IMG/VR virus record: IMGVR_UViG_3300019764_000022
Span: 1 to 25,146 of that record
Reading direction: 5' to 3' (one strand)
Source: a virus
Length of the DNA stretch: 25,146 nucleotides
In this document: positions 19,839 through 25,146 of the stretch, piece after piece
Layout of the letters: each line of letters begins with the position of its first letter
Position numbering within the stretch: position 1 is the stretch's first letter
The notes under the pieces: generated by a model
What the model was told of the DNA's origin: nothing
The model's input: only the letters and a program-made list of their open reading frames with translations
Databases searched by the model: none
Translations under genes and position numbers: made by a program

Positions 19839-20399
19839 TGATTTCTCCTGTTCTATTTTTTTTTCGATTTGTGCTGACGCTGGGTTTTCTCCCAAATCTT
19901 CTTCACTAAGCCCTACTTTTGCATTTGGTATAGCTGGTATTGTTACGACACTAGCTTCCTGTAGTTGCCATTTTGTAGCCTTATATGTTTTTCTTCCATT
20001 CTCGTTATTCTCTTCTATTAATACTTGTTTATCTATTTGTATCCCTACTGAAAAAGATTTCATTATATTTCTTTCAATTTTTCCAAATATCTCCATAGCT
20101 TTTGAATCTTCTGAATCGAATCTTGCCATTGCTTTAACTTTACCGTCTTCAAGTCTTACATTTTCCCATATTCCTATAGGTAATGAATAATCGTTATGCT
20201 GTAAAAGAACTGGCATTATATCTTTTCTACTAAAATCTATTGCATTTTCACTATGATCTAATATAAGGTCATATACCCCGTCTTTATAATTGTACCTTAT
20301 TACTTTTGTTTCCTCAGATAATACTGCTTTAACTGTTTTGTTTTCACTATCTATAGTGGCATCTACTATTATTGCACTATTAAAATTTGTTTTATCCAT
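19464..20399 (-). CDS. Prohead protease with C-terminal scaffold domain
   Basis: A 311-residue protein. Residues 1-160 match the HK97-family prohead serine protease: H68 in MPVLLQHNDYSLPIG, S117 in IMKSFSVGI, and the following LQEASVVTIPAIPNAKVGLS. H and S would be catalytic, with a nearby acidic residue (E153 region). Residues 188-311 are a helical scaffold module. It directs capsid assembly and then degrades the scaffold. The gene overlaps the portal stop by 8 nt, with GGAGTAAGTA before ATG. Lambda gpC uses a ClpP-like fold instead, so the head is lambda-like with an HK97-type protease. Confidence 0.85.
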   Translation of the reverse strand: MDKTNFNSAIIVDATIDSENKTVKAVLSEETKVIRYNYKDGVYDLILDHSENAIDFSRKDIMPVLLQHNDYSLPIGIWENVRLEDGKVKAMARFDSEDSKAMEIFGKIERNIMKSFSVGIQIDKQVLIEENNENGRKTYKATKWQLQEASVVTIPAIPNAKVGLSEEDLGENPASAQIEKKIEQEKSMKTVEEFKSQYPDLYTQVFSAGVAGEKDRVNAHIEMAKSTGADKFALECIEGSESLSQTVIAKYTAFGLNNQQKKDRENENLGNVETPQENLDNGKDEESAKQEAKEQSLAKVLNVDLSKVKGA

Positions 20400-21984
20400 T
20401 ACTTACTCCTATATTTGTTAAATCTGCTATAAGCCCAGCATCTTGAAGTGGTTTTTGTGCTATAGCTTTTTGCTCGTTTTCTCTCTTTTGTTGCTGAATT
20501 ACTTTAGAGTATTTCATACCTGTAATATCTCTACTCGCTCTATCTGCTGTAACCCAACCTCTATCGTACAACTCTCCATATGCTTTAGCTGTTTTAAGTA
20601 AATCAATACTAGGCTTAATTGCACCAGCCCAATTTGACATAACCCATGCACCGTATTTATCCCACTGATTAGTTCTGTATGCTTCTAAAAATCCATCTGC
20701 TTTTATATTATCATTTAGTATTTCAGCTAAAAAGAAGTCTTCGTAAACATAGCTTAAAAAATTATCTCCGAAATCATCTCGCATTTTTTCAAGATACATT
20801 TTAAACTCACTAACCGCGGCTTGACTTGCGGAATAATTTGAACTAAATCCTAATGTCATTATTTCTGGTGGCATTTCATTCGCCCACGCTATTGCGTTTA
20901 TAATAGCCTCTTCAAATACTGCAAAATTAACATTTGGTCTTTTAGTATCGTATGAATGTGGTTTTTCTCCATGTTGTAATTCTTGGAAAATTAGCCCTGG
21001 CATTTGTGCTGAAAATTCAACATCTTTACGACCTTGGCTATCATTTTGAGTTTGAATAGTATCTTTTCTAGTAGCTGATTGAGAAAATGGGGTCGACGAC
21101 ATTTTATCCTCTCCCTTTTCAATCCATAAAGCTAACATTGCATTTATAACAGCTGCTCTCTGTTCACTATCTCTATATCTATCAATCTCTTTTAATGATT
21201 GCATAACTAATCCCAATAGTGACTGACCTCGCACCTGTCCTATTAGTTTTTCAGTACCATAATATAAAAATGCTTGTTTTCTTCCAGTTCTAGAAGTATT
21301 TACAGGTATTCTTGTATATTTTCCTTTTTCATTTTGAACATAGTATGCAATGTGTCTTTTTGATTGATTTAATTCTACACCATAATCAATGGTATTTCCT
21401 CTTGCTTTTATCTCTTTTAATAAGCTATCACTCATTGGTGTTTTTACATTTTCAGCGTCTATAAGTTGAACATTAGGAGTTCCATTTTTATTTGTTCTTA
21501 GAACTACAAGCACATCTCCACTTACTATAGCCATCATTCTAGCGTTTCTTTGAATAGCTGCAAATTTTTCTTGTCTTGAGTAATCACAAAGCTTTTCAGA
21601 TTTTCCCCATATCTCAAATCTTCTCTCTATTGTTTCCGCAAATTTATCCGCTTCCTCATCTGAAATACCTAAAATAATATTATCTGGCATTGCTTCTAGT
21701 TTTAAGCCTTTATTTATTTCATTTGTGATTAATCTTCTAATTAATCCTCTTGCATATAAATTTTCATTAAAAAGTTGTTTTGATCTTTTTCTCAAAGTCC
21801 AATAGTCTACTATCTCAAAGTCTTTTGTAACTCCAAATCCTCCAGGGAACTTTTCCCCACTCCAATAGTTAGATTGATAAGGTACATCATAGCTCGGTAA
21901 ATTTGCTAAATCTATTTTTTGTTTGTTTTGTTTTTTTTGTTTGTTTTTTTTGTTTTGTTTTTTTTGTTTGTTATGTTTTACCAT
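20392..21984 (-). CDS. Portal protein, lambda gpB family
   Basis: A 530-residue protein, close to lambda gpB (533). Motifs: ENLYARGLIRRLITNEINKG, SGDVLVVLRTNKNGTPNVQL, DRYRDSEQRAAVINAMLALW, MPGLIFQELQHGEKPHSYDT and the strongly conserved NEMPPEIMTLGFSSNYSASQ. Twelve copies form the ring through which DNA is packaged and which binds the tail. The first 24 residues are unusual: almost only Lys, Gln and Asn in two repeats. The start codon lies within the gpW stop (ATGGTAA), with GGGAG six bases before it, so they are coupled. Confidence 0.93.
   Translation of the reverse strand: MVKHNKQKKQNKKNKQKKQNKQKIDLANLPSYDVPYQSNYWSGEKFPGGFGVTKDFEIVDYWTLRKRSKQLFNENLYARGLIRRLITNEINKGLKLEAMPDNIILGISDEEADKFAETIERRFEIWGKSEKLCDYSRQEKFAAIQRNARMMAIVSGDVLVVLRTNKNGTPNVQLIDAENVKTPMSDSLLKEIKARGNTIDYGVELNQSKRHIAYYVQNEKGKYTRIPVNTSRTGRKQAFLYYGTEKLIGQVRGQSLLGLVMQSLKEIDRYRDSEQRAAVINAMLALWIEKGEDKMSSTPFSQSATRKDTIQTQNDSQGRKDVEFSAQMPGLIFQELQHGEKPHSYDTKRPNVNFAVFEEAIINAIAWANEMPPEIMTLGFSSNYSASQAAVSEFKMYLEKMRDDFGDNFLSYVYEDFFLAEILNDNIKADGFLEAYRTNQWDKYGAWVMSNWAGAIKPSIDLLKTAKAYGELYDRGWVTADRASRDITGMKYSKVIQQQKRENEQKAIAQKPLQDAGLIADLTNIGVSNG
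21922..21972 (-). repeat. Two 24-nt A-rich repeats at the portal N-terminus
   Basis: Codons 5-12 and 14-21 both encode NKQKKQNK with identical DNA, separated by one Lys codon (period 27 nt). Several runs of eight A make the stretch a likely site for polymerase slippage and copy-number change. Confidence 0.85.
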
Positions 21985-22229
21985 GCTGGTCTCCCAACTT
22001 GTACACCTCTATTGCTTAATCTATTTTCTAAAATAGTAAGTCTATTATATAATGAATCTAATGTTTTATTTAATTCATCTATGTTAAATCTTGTTACTTG
22101 CGTTGTTGATTGACCTGTATCTAGTCTATATGATTGAACTCCACCACTTAATGCTATAAGCGCATCTTCAATGGCTTCTATTTGAGCTTTTGTTTTAGTA
22201 ATCCGTTCTTGTATGTAAGTTGAATCCAT
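21978..22229 (-). CDS. Head-tail joining protein, lambda gpW-like
   Basis: An 83-residue protein. The N-terminal helix (IQERITKTKAQIEAIEDALI), the small loop ALSGGVQSYRLDTGQS, and the second helix (IDELNKTLDSLYNRLTILEN) follow the helix-beta-hairpin-helix plan of gpW, and the ending GVQVGRPAW corresponds to the Gly-Pro-x-Gly-Phe-Tyr end of gpW. In lambda, gpW stabilises packaged DNA at the portal and is required before tail attachment. It is the first gene of the second transcript, 12 bases after an 11-codon leader, with TTAAAGG nine bases before ATG. It overlaps the portal start by 7 nt. Confidence 0.8.
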   Translation of the reverse strand: MDSTYIQERITKTKAQIEAIEDALIALSGGVQSYRLDTGQSTTQVTRFNIDELNKTLDSLYNRLTILENRLSNRGVQVGRPAW

Positions 22230-22241
22230 TAATATAAACCT

Positions 22242-22277
22242 TTAAGTCATAATTTCAGACTCTTTGTTTGTTGCCAT
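22242..22277 (-). CDS. Eleven-codon leader ORF before the gpW-like gene
   Basis: ATG 22277 opens MATNKESEIMT then TAA, with AAAAGGAAA as a good ribosome binding site. It is the first ORF in the transcript from the promoter at 22314-22342, and its stop is 12 bases before the gpW start. It may be a leader peptide that sets gpW translation, or simply a chance short ORF. The site is inside a 12-bp palindrome. Confidence 0.35.
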   Translation of the reverse strand: MATNKESEIMT

Positions 22278-22280
22278 TTT

Positions 22281-22292
22281 CCTTTTAAAAGG
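22281..22292. repeat. Palindrome covering the leader ribosome binding site
   Basis: CCTTTTAAAAGG is a perfect 12-base palindrome. Its right half on the minus strand is the AAAAGG of the leader ribosome binding site, so folding in the mRNA could hide it, or it could be a protein-binding site just inside the transcript. Confidence 0.4.
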
Positions 22293-22313
22293 TACTTTGG
22301 ACTTAATTGTGTA

Positions 22314-22342
22314 AGTATATCATAAGTTAAGCTTAATTACAA
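22314..22342 (-). promoter_or_regulatory. Promoter of the head-tail operon
   Basis: On the minus strand TTGTAA (22342-22337), a 17-nt spacer and TATACT (22319-22314) preceded by TGA (extended -10). It lies between the terminase stop and the gpW leader. The spacer contains the perfect palindrome TTAAGCTTAA (22327-22336), a possible operator. TATGATATACTT is identical to the core of the terminase promoter. Confidence 0.65.
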
Positions 22343-22343
22343 G

Positions 22344-24320
22344 TTAATTAAAAAAAACTTTTTCACTCTCTAAATAATCCCAAAATTTAACCCAGTCTAT
22401 ATTATCCATTCCGAAATGGTCTATACATATTTTCTTAGCTAAAACCTCAACTGCACAGTTTCCATACACTAACAAATCCCACAACTCATTTTCTTTTCCA
22501 CTTGGTCTAAACCATATATAAGATATATTACCTCTTGTATCTTCTACTTCTTTTAAATATTCTGCCGTTAATTCTTTTATTGCTTTATCTGTTAAATCCA
22601 TTGGTGCGTTAAAATGATATGGTCTTTGTATTCCATCTACTTCGTGCCACTCTCTTCTTAATACTGGTGCTAATCTGTCTTTGTAATGGTCTACTGTTAT
22701 TCTATATCCCTTTGTACCTTGTTGGGTTGTAAACTCTCCAAATTCTTGGATTTTTTGATTTTTGCTTGGTCTCTCTCTTCCTAAAATAGGATAAACATTT
22801 GAAACATAGTCGCTACAAAAAGAAGTAACTGTATCATTAGCATATCCCGCATCTACAAATGTAATTGCTATTTTGTATTGAAGTCCGTTATCTGCAAAAT
22901 ATACTTTTTCCTCAATTATTTCTCTTAACTTATTCCACGGCGTTGATGATAACTCGGTACAGTCTGTCTCACCCTCTTTTGTTTCAAGTCTCCAATAATC
23001 TATCACATAACATCTGAATCCTTTAGTCCATCCCATAACAGATACTGCTAAATTTCTTTTATGTACATCTACTTGACAAGTCAATAATAAAATATCTGAT
23101 CCACTATTTTTATTTGCATATAAGTTTGGCACTTGACCGCTCTTATATTCATATCTTCTATGAGCCGAAACTGATTGAAACTTAATATTTCCTCCTAATT
23201 TTTGGAAAGGCTCTCCTAAAACTTCATTATAAAAAGTTTGCAAATCTTTTATATTTTTTGTTTTTTTAGTTTCTGGTTCATAAGCGTCAAGATATGAAGC
23301 TACACATTTATACCATGGCTGGAATCCAATAGGAGAGTAAAAAGCTGGTAAATGATAACTTCTTATCCCCTCTTCTATTGGTTTTGCTGTTGGAATCCAT
23401 TCTGCATTGTCTTCACTAAATAATTTTTGTTTATCGTGTTCATAATGTGAATGTCCACACTCTATACAGTCATATCTTACTGAATCATTTATGAGTGTTC
23501 CTTTTTCTGTTTCCCACTTGAAACCTCCGATAAGTCCTGTCTCTTTATCTGTATATGACCATCTTAAAAATTGAGAATGACCGCATTTTAAACATTTTAC
23601 AAAGTATTTTCGCTGGTCTCCTTTTTTATATGATTTTAGTATTTTAGAGTTTGCTTTTATAAGTGGGGTTGATCCTCTTAAAATTTTTCGTTCTTCCCAA
23701 AATGCAGAACACCTATTATCTGTTAATTTGTCTGGGTCTCCATCATCTCCTAGTGAATCTTTCCATTTATCTAACTCATCTTTAAGCATAGCCAAAATAG
23801 ATAATGACTGTTTTGTGAATCCACTTTGTGCCGACCCCATAGCCATATAACCGCCGCCCTCAAACTGTAGTATGTCTTCTGTTTGTCCTGTTTTTCTTGT
23901 ATTTTCCTTATCGTTTGACCTTATAATATCTCTAAATCCACTATGATTAATCATAGGCATAATACTATTATCGAGTCTAGCTTTTTTTATAACATTATCA
24001 ACAGTTACAAACATCATTGGCAATGTTTTTACATGAGCCATAAAATATAATAATGCAGATTCTAAAAATGTGGTGTATCCAACTTGTACACCTTTCATCA
24101 TTGACACCTCTCTTACATCGCTATCTATATCCATGCAATCCAAAGGTTCTTTTAAATATGGAAATAAATCATATCTTATATACCCCGGGGAACTTGTAAC
24201 AGATTGAGGAAGGTATCTATATTTTTCATTGAATTCTACTGGAGTTAATCTCTCAATATTGTCTGTTATGTTTTCTATTTCACTTAATAACCATTCAATA
24301 CCTATTTTATCTAAATTCAT
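22344..24320 (-). CDS. Terminase large subunit, lambda gpA family
   Basis: A 658-residue protein, close to lambda gpA (641). The adenine/Walker A region is degenerate as in gpA (MKGVQVGYTTFLESA, residues 75-89), Walker B is LSILAMLKDELDKW with D181-E182, and the coupling motif is ILRGSTPL (213-220). A four-Cys zinc ribbon follows (C243-x2-C246 and YDCIECGHSH). The C-terminal nuclease has the acidic residues of TCQVDVHKRNLAVSVMGW and TFVDAGYAND. It cuts concatemeric DNA and drives packaging through the portal with ATP. The ATG overlaps the small subunit stop (ATGA). Its stop lies beside the next promoter. Confidence 0.95.
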   Translation of the reverse strand: MNLDKIGIEWLLSEIENITDNIERLTPVEFNEKYRYLPQSVTSSPGYIRYDLFPYLKEPLDCMDIDSDVREVSMMKGVQVGYTTFLESALLYFMAHVKTLPMMFVTVDNVIKKARLDNSIMPMINHSGFRDIIRSNDKENTRKTGQTEDILQFEGGGYMAMGSAQSGFTKQSLSILAMLKDELDKWKDSLGDDGDPDKLTDNRCSAFWEERKILRGSTPLIKANSKILKSYKKGDQRKYFVKCLKCGHSQFLRWSYTDKETGLIGGFKWETEKGTLINDSVRYDCIECGHSHYEHDKQKLFSEDNAEWIPTAKPIEEGIRSYHLPAFYSPIGFQPWYKCVASYLDAYEPETKKTKNIKDLQTFYNEVLGEPFQKLGGNIKFQSVSAHRRYEYKSGQVPNLYANKNSGSDILLLTCQVDVHKRNLAVSVMGWTKGFRCYVIDYWRLETKEGETDCTELSSTPWNKLREIIEEKVYFADNGLQYKIAITFVDAGYANDTVTSFCSDYVSNVYPILGRERPSKNQKIQEFGEFTTQQGTKGYRITVDHYKDRLAPVLRREWHEVDGIQRPYHFNAPMDLTDKAIKELTAEYLKEVEDTRGNISYIWFRPSGKENELWDLLVYGNCAVEVLAKKICIDHFGMDNIDWVKFWDYLESEKVFFN

Positions 24321-25039
24321 TTTAGCAGACTTTCTAGAGTTTTTTTCATTTCATTTTTAACTGGTTTTATATATGATGATATTTGTTCATTAATAAAACT
24401 TCTAACTTCTATTTTTGTACTTCCACTTTTTACCATATTATAAACTTGGTTACTTATTGACTTTGACCCATCTTCTAATAGTTGATTAAATCCTGTATTT
24501 ATTGGGTCAAATATTCCTAACTTCACAAGTCTTACAGATACTAACTCTTTTTTTCTCTCTTTGTTTTTTAAATTCTTTTCTTCAATATCTTCTATTAATT
24601 TTCTAGCTCTTAGAAAATCTACCAAAGCATAATCAGTTCCAAATTCATTTATGGCTTCTTCTATTGTATATTTTAAGTATTTTTTTAAACTTTGTGGTAT
24701 TGGTGTTCCGTTATCTGTTATATCTAGTGATACATTTTTTTTATTTTCTTTTGCTGCTCTTTGTCCTGTTGAGTTTTCTTTTTTATCAACTTTTACAAAT
24801 TCATATACTTCTGGCTCTTCATTAAAATCATTTTTAACTTTTTTAACTTTTTGCGTATAGGCGTTTTTTCTTTCATTTTGTTCTGATTTTTTTTTAATAT
24901 AGTTTTTTGTAACTTCGTGGTCTAAGTCTATACGCTTACCGTCAAAAGCTTCTTTAAGTTGATTATTACACGCTTTTGTTATTGCAGCTGGACTTACATT
25001 TACTAGCCTTGCTAGTTCACTTTTTGATATATTTCTCAT
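24317..25039 (-). CDS. Terminase small subunit, Nu1-like with N-terminal helix-turn-helix
   Basis: A 240-residue protein. Residues 5-24 (SKSELARLVNVSPAAITKAC) form a helix-turn-helix as in lambda Nu1, which binds DNA beside cos. A long charged middle (EQNERKNAYTQ, KVKKVKND..., NKKNV) and a helical region (TIEEAINEFGTDYALVDFLR, ARKLIEDIEEKNLKNKERKK) for oligomerisation and large-subunit binding follow. The ATG is only 7 bases after the -10 box, the frame is closed by a TGA five codons upstream, and there is no ribosome binding site. The start is nevertheless forced by the HTH at residue 5, so a leaderless mRNA is predicted. It overlaps the large subunit by 4 nt. Confidence 0.85.
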   Translation of the reverse strand: MRNISKSELARLVNVSPAAITKACNNQLKEAFDGKRIDLDHEVTKNYIKKKSEQNERKNAYTQKVKKVKNDFNEEPEVYEFVKVDKKENSTGQRAAKENKKNVSLDITDNGTPIPQSLKKYLKYTIEEAINEFGTDYALVDFLRARKLIEDIEEKNLKNKERKKELVSVRLVKLGIFDPINTGFNQLLEDGSKSISNQVYNMVKSGSTKIEVRSFINEQISSYIKPVKNEMKKTLESLLK

Positions 25040-25045
25040 TTTGCA

Positions 25046-25095
25046 AGTATATCATAAAAGTTAAAAAAAGTTAAAAAAGTTTTTGAAAAGTTAAA
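25046..25095 (-). promoter_or_regulatory. Terminase promoter with phased A-tracts
   Basis: Minus-strand TATACT (25051-25046), preceded by TGA, is an extended -10. Upstream, AAAAGTTAAA or close variants recur with GTT at 25060, 25070, 25079 (imperfect) and 25090, so T-tracts repeat every 9-11 bp on the transcribed face. Campylobacter sigma70 promoters show just such periodicity in place of a -35. TTAACT 17 nt upstream is at best a weak -35. Confidence 0.65.
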
Positions 25096-25126
25096 AGAAG
25101 TAAAAACATTGGAGTTTGTTTTTTTT

Positions 25127-25136
25127 CCGCCGTGGC
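25127..25136. other. GC-rich patch, candidate cos or terminase site
   Basis: CCGCCGTGGC is nine tenths G/C inside DNA that is otherwise nearly all A/T, and lies about 90 bp upstream of the terminase small subunit gene, where cos lies in lambda and P2. Cohesive ends of such phages are GC-rich and 9-19 bases long. The window ends 10 bases beyond it, so the flanking symmetry cannot be judged. Confidence 0.4.
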
Positions 25137-25146
25137 AAAACAAAAG

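Follow-up and report, generated by a model that had tools for sequence, protein, structure and literature searches.

The start of the terminase small subunit gene (terS) of this virus lies on the minus strand at 25039, 107 nt from the end of the record, which raises the question of where its mRNA begins, how that mRNA is read and what the neighboring DNA end has to do with either; the window, i.e., the whole stretch of DNA that was analyzed, is the complete virus record of 25,146 bases. The gene (24317–25039, minus strand) encodes a 240-residue protein with an N-terminal helix-turn-helix (HTH), assigned from phrog_57 (E 4.9e-06) and a structural model, and is directly followed by terL (22344–24320, minus strand), a GpA-type large terminase. 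An ORF resembling HNH endonucleases, which also matches AP2 weakly, is found at 608–1273 on the plus strand, opposite to the late genes.

The start codon can be judged from the protein itself. In an AlphaFold2 model of TerS (mean pLDDT of 85, with residues 1–50 at 95–98), a strand at residues 3–5 precedes the two HTH helices (residues 6–13 and 17–25), and since these elements are modeled confidently from residue 3 onward, the N-terminus looks complete from the ATG at 25039. The preliminary description of this locus had argued from the closeness of the HTH to the N-terminus that no other start would serve, and the model agrees with it. The best PHROG for the protein is phrog_13700, “FtsK/SpoIIIE-like” (1.3e-31), ahead of phrog_57, a name that may be owed to those members whose TerS bears an FtsK-gamma domain (PF09397). 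Many relatives carry this domain (39/65 TerS by our own profile, built from three members; above the Pfam cutoff in L012, 2364–3239, and L004, 3100–4002, and below it in L003, 90–902), and the TerS of the window is without it. A Pfam search of the latter gave no family above its cutoff, a Foldseek search with its model gave nothing at E 0.001 or better, and an Rfam search gave no match. Structural alignment (VIA-align) gave Z-scores under 8 throughout, with a weak match to the G20c small terminase (Z 6.5, rmsd 10.6) and, for the HTH part, BldC at Z 5.1; a profile search of solved structures returned designed helical proteins as best matches and, weakly, the lac repressor headpiece.

Upstream of the ATG (25039–25037), the minus strand carries an extended −10 element, TGATATACT (25054–25046), recognized from the sequence and a promoter scan and ending 6 nt before terS; it comprises the hexamer TATACT (25051–25046) with TG at −15/−14 and is followed by TGCAAA. 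The hexamer had been placed at −12 to −7, and the minus-strand sequence bears these coordinates out, so that the spacing predicts transcription to start at the A of the terS AUG (25039). A −35 element, TTAACT (25074–25069), lies 17 bp from the −10 and overlaps the middle one of three direct repeats of TTAAC (25094–25090, 25074–25070 and 25064–25060, minus strand; spacing 20 and 10 nt), which, from their sequence and their enrichment in the family, are candidate TerS-binding sites of a cosB-like kind (25060–25094). Read toward terS, the layout is thus CTTTTGTTTTGCCACGGCGG at the record end, the TTAAC repeats, TTAACT, 17 bp, TATACT with its TG, 6 nt and ATG. The reading frame is closed by an in-frame TGA (25054–25052) five codons upstream, with no ATG, GTG or TTG in between, and the computed energy of anti-Shine-Dalgarno pairing upstream of terS is +0.6, i.e., no pairing; both had been expected from the first inspection, as had the leaderless transcript to which they point. 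For comparison, a Shine-Dalgarno (SD) motif precedes 17/24 of the other minus-strand genes tested in the window. The predicted start of transcription on the start codon, the missing SD and the AUG are the sequence features of a leaderless gene. Taken alone, the window’s promoter is within chance: over positions 20000–25146, promoter-like sites number 24 by comparison with 25.6 in shuffled sequences, and an 18-nt pattern joining extended −10 and ATG has 6 matches for 6.0 expected, the terS site being the only one without a mismatch. Its significance comes from relatives.

The upstream regions of related terS genes were gathered from IMG/VR, two bacterial assemblies and annotated phages by way of terL and alignment searches, the best 80 of 166 terL loci being kept in one search; a direct search of viral contigs for close relatives of the window’s TerS found none, and searches of genome contigs gave 0 and then 2 loci. 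TerS matches lacking the N-terminus (e.g., L005, L013, L059, L065, L068, L084, L113, L125 and L142) were dropped, as were duplicates of one upstream sequence, leaving 76 regions, of which 65 are non-redundant at 80% amino acid identity. Among the former, L013 (3403–4005), a TerS relative of Acinetobacter phage Scuro, has no HTH part in the frame concerned. In each gene, the ATG closest to the HTH served as start codon (GTG or TTG only if there was none), the −10 being ignored, and a −10 hexamer had to match at least 4 of 6 positions, including A2 and T6.

Such a hexamer precedes the start by exactly 6 or 7 nt in 44/65 non-redundant terS genes (26 at 6 nt and 18 at 7 nt), while every other distance from 0 to 59 nt is occupied in 0 to 6 genes each and shuffled sequences average 1.4 per position (maximum 8). 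The same spacing occurs at 4/145 other gene starts of these loci (3 at 6 nt and 1 at 7 nt; Fisher p = 1.6e-24), and after clustering at 50% amino acid identity it is retained in 16/33 clusters; no −10 is present within 4–10 nt in 16/65 terS genes. In the 6-nt group, G occupies −14 in 23/26 and T−12 is fixed, neither being forced by the hexamer rule, which imposes A−11 and T−7. For the counts of −35 elements and repeats, 55 and 54 of the 65 rows, those with a −10 of at least 3/6, were used: a −35-like hexamer beginning with TT is found at 17 bp in 32/55, with a mean match of 2.93 by comparison with 1.07–2.09 at other spacers. As the layout from promoter to start codon is common to these relatives, it probably reflects genuine control of the gene rather than coincidence.

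The layout is placed at what appears to be a chromosome end. The contig stops at the probable left cohesive end (cos; 25127–25146, minus strand), the one end that the window contains; in its alignment with the chromosome end of relative L044, 15/20 nt are identical, a score reached by 0/2000 shuffles over 46 relatives. Among the 76 upstream regions, 53 begin less than 130 nt before terS, and a GTTTTGATT-like motif marks the exact beginning of 34 of these 53. When records were compared at both ends, leaving out G009, W01 and W02, an exact 15-nt terminal direct repeat, GTTTTGATTCNNNNN, was present in 7/9, its last two bases being CG in six and AC in G007; in the other two, the G008 contig ends away from cos on both sides and the PY6 record (W03) ends without the repeat. 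Such a repeat is what 15-nt 5′ cohesive ends would leave once filled in at the library stage. Given the end motif and repeats of the relatives and an alignment to L044 beyond that of shuffles, the phage chromosome very probably ends physically, with its cohesive end, at base 25146. The seven repeat-ended contigs measure 40775 to 48288 bases, and the window very probably covers the left portion, with the late genes, of a genome longer than itself. Across cos, a conserved A-run followed by GGTACTG is observed some 30–40 nt before the cohesive end, at the right ends of G001–G008 and W03 (L148–L166) and at about 2235–2273 in L012. A hairpin before cos was considered as a terminator and rejected, as its stems vary and its T-run is only 3–4 nt long (11 folded). 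For a myovirus whose tail sheath gene resembles that of Shewanella phage SppYZU01, pac-type packaging is reported on the basis of PhageTerm (PMC10132091); packaging modes may thus differ among neighboring phages.

With the predicted promoter and the probable DNA end in place, the translation signals bear on how the mRNA is read. An SD motif precedes 1/44 terS genes with a −10 at 6–7 nt by comparison with 53/92 control genes (ORFs of at least 200 amino acids), anti-SD pairing energies differing accordingly between terS and controls (Mann–Whitney p 2.8e-10), while it is found in 6/16 terS genes without a −10 at 4–10 nt (Fisher p 6e-4). From these two frequencies, a nearby promoter and an SD tend to be alternatives in the sequences sampled. 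Base −1 is a pyrimidine in 17/18 genes at 7 nt, where a purine would favor earlier initiation of the RNA, and in 19/26 at 6 nt; 43/44 genes start with ATG, which had been preferred in choosing starts. Both are as expected of an RNA predicted to begin at the A of the ATG. The fixed distance from −10 to ATG, the absence of an SD, the pyrimidine at −1, the −35-like element at 17 bp and the return of SD motifs where the −10 is missing all uphold the earlier proposal, and leaderless transcription of terS, judged from sequence, is the best-supported reading of the locus and a likely one.

Several other explanations have to be weighed. On circular or concatemeric DNA, most terS mRNA could come from a late promoter upstream of cos, as in phage lambda, the leaderless promoter being a minor one. 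Phage SppYZU01 has a gene in the same orientation whose end lies about 86 nt before cos, and read-through from it would provide terS with a leader; a leadered mRNA does not favor the loss of the SD from 43/44 promoter-bearing terS genes and its presence in 6/16 of those where the −10 is missing, and this explanation is accordingly unlikely, though far from negligible. It is improbable that the mRNA has a very short leader, with TATGAT (25056–25051, minus strand), which overlaps TATACT, as the true −10 and a start about 5 nt before the AUG. This hexamer matches at 5/6 positions and lies 11 nt from the ATG, and in relative L012 a TATAAT stands at 10 nt, so that leaders of 3–5 nt may occur in the family; TATACT nevertheless has the TG extension and a −35 at 17 bp, and the family peaks at 6–7 nt, with only 6/65 at 11 nt. 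Slightly less probable again is the idea that the TATAAT-like sequence is kept for the complex of cos and TerS, for instance because it bends or melts readily, and does not serve as a promoter: it does lie between the chromosome end and terS, adjoining the putative TerS boxes, but G at −14, a −35-like element at 17 bp, a pyrimidine at −1, a fixed distance to the ATG and loss of the SD are features of promoters and translation and not of packaging. A chance match in AT-rich DNA, in line with a window promoter scan that equals shuffles, is very unlikely as an explanation for the family, in which the geometry is repeated in 43/64 non-redundant relatives other than the window.

Leaderless transcription being the preferred reading, the repeats between the end and the promoter deserve attention. 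Direct repeats with a period of 9–12 nt are enriched there, in 12/54 regions at 10 nt and 12/54 at 11 nt (means under 2 in shuffles). Five box 5-mers, TTAAC, TTTGC, TTGAC, TTTAC and TTCAC, are encountered across the relatives, the copies varying together; at least two identical copies of one of the five are present in 24/65 upstream regions (mean of 0.46 and maximum of 3 in shuffles), and a box often falls at the −35 position, where the TT-initial hexamers stand. The type of box tracks the predicted recognition helix of TerS. Helices of the xPSx type (PS) go with TTTGC in 10/14 cases, with TTAAC in 1 and with neither or both in 3, and helices of the AA type go with TTAAC in 23/27, with TTTGC in 0 and with neither or both in 4 (Fisher 8.4e-8; 34/65 rows classed for both). 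On a poorly supported tree of the rest of TerS (63 rows, 33 of them classed for both helix and box), there are at least 8 changes of helix type and 7 of box type, and the independent helix–box pairs on well-supported branches number 2, both agreeing. As helix and box occupy adjacent DNA, recombination may also transfer the two jointly.

The FtsK-gamma domain of the relatives prompted a test for KOPS, the motif GGGNAGGG, near the promoter; sites with at least 6/7 letters are found in 2/38 by comparison with 3% of shuffles and are not enriched. An inverted repeat whose arms flank the −10 is observed in 11/38 gamma-type regions by comparison with 3.8 in shuffles (maximum 9), and in 3/26 without gamma. 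It is seen in L105, L037, L032 and L012, often with a G-rich 5′ arm and a C-rich 3′ arm, and a wider inverted repeat surrounds the −10 upstream of terS in L094. In these relatives it is a possible operator; it is not present in the window and was dropped from the explanation of that locus.

Downstream, the terS stop and the terL start overlap in an ATGA (24317–24320, minus strand), and terL has no SD of its own in the window, which is why its translation is probably coupled to that of terS and hence to leaderless initiation. Past terL, a second promoter-like site (22342–22314, minus strand) holds TGATATACT at 22322–22314 and shares the 10-mer TGATATACTT with the terS promoter; the next gene (22229) is preceded by a weak SD and would receive a leader of about 78 nt. 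A like site is present in 36/83 distinct terL 3′ regions by comparison with 45/695 terL-internal windows, which are coding and make a rough control. Given this leadered second site, the head genes may be expressed apart from the terminase, a requirement of the earlier suggestion that leaderless expression would keep the packaging initiator scarce relative to the capsid; the site is consistent with that suggestion. TerS boxes of a phage’s own type are not regularly recurrent at this second promoter among the 64 relatives examined, and the TTAAC copies there in the window may be due to chance in AT-rich DNA.

Taken together, these elements suggest a mechanism for a cos phage whose terminase is of the GpA type and whose left cohesive end is formed by positions 25037–25146. 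From a promoter of the sigma70 type, with its extended −10 and its −35 at 17 bp, RNA synthesis would start on the A of the terS AUG and yield a leaderless terS–terL mRNA, on which the ATGA overlap would allow terL to be translated by coupling. TerS would bind the TTAAC repeats that separate this end from the promoter, one of them doubling as the −35. Because of this double use, TerS bound at cos would both start packaging and shut off its own leaderless promoter. The sequence layout, its conservation, the lack of an SD and, in relatives, the location at the chromosome end are seen in the sequences, and we infer each of the exact 5′ end, TerS binding, autorepression and coupling; the joint reading of a left cos end, a leaderless sigma70-type terS–terL promoter, TerS boxes with autorepression, and coupling is likely. 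More tentatively, and with less than even probability, TerS may be at once the initiator of packaging and the repressor of its own leaderless promoter, such that occupancy of cos halts terminase synthesis from that copy, with helix and boxes having co-diverged many times.

Known systems offer several points of comparison. In phage lambda, the cosN–cosB–Nu1 region runs from the cohesive end through TerS-binding repeats to terS and a GpA-type terL, and terS is read from a distant late promoter, with a leader. The order of end, repeats (candidate TerS sites here), terS and GpA-type terL resembles that of the window; unlike in lambda, the window’s promoter is embedded among the candidate TerS sites, one of the boxes serving as its −35. 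The closest isolate, SppYZU01, shares the terS–terL order and the conserved end motif at its left end (KY622015.1), along with a box pair, there TTTGC, and a −10-like TATAAT, there 10 nt from the terS ATG; it differs in its predicted leader of 3–5 nt and in a TerS with the FtsK-gamma domain that is lacking in the window. The cI mRNA of lambda begins at its AUG without a ribosome binding site (PMC3342100) and is, as predicted for terS, the leaderless transcript of a phage gene. By comparison with terS, however, cI encodes the repressor of lysogeny and not a packaging protein, and is located away from the chromosome end. Leaderless promoters, PL1 and PR2, are reportedly predicted in cluster O mycobacteriophages; these differ in that their hosts are mycobacteria, in which leaderless transcripts abound. 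Examples of leaderless phage mRNAs exist (PMC3342100, PMC4351075), and phage transcripts are described as often leaderless (PMC5312081); the portions of the literature retrieved for leaderless together with terminase, cos site or terminase small subunit contain no leaderless terminase gene. The parts are of known kinds, and their combination was not found in print.

Leaderless phage genes have been known singly; here, one gene at the physical chromosome end retains a common geometry throughout a diverse set of phages. Of more interest than the leaderless prediction is its setting, with a promoter placed within the proposed packaging site. If true, packaging, terminase dosage and mode of translation would be tied together, and the correspondence between the recognition helix of TerS and its box would constitute a readable protein-to-DNA code for the recognition of cos, a step that is difficult to approach except in a handful of model phages.
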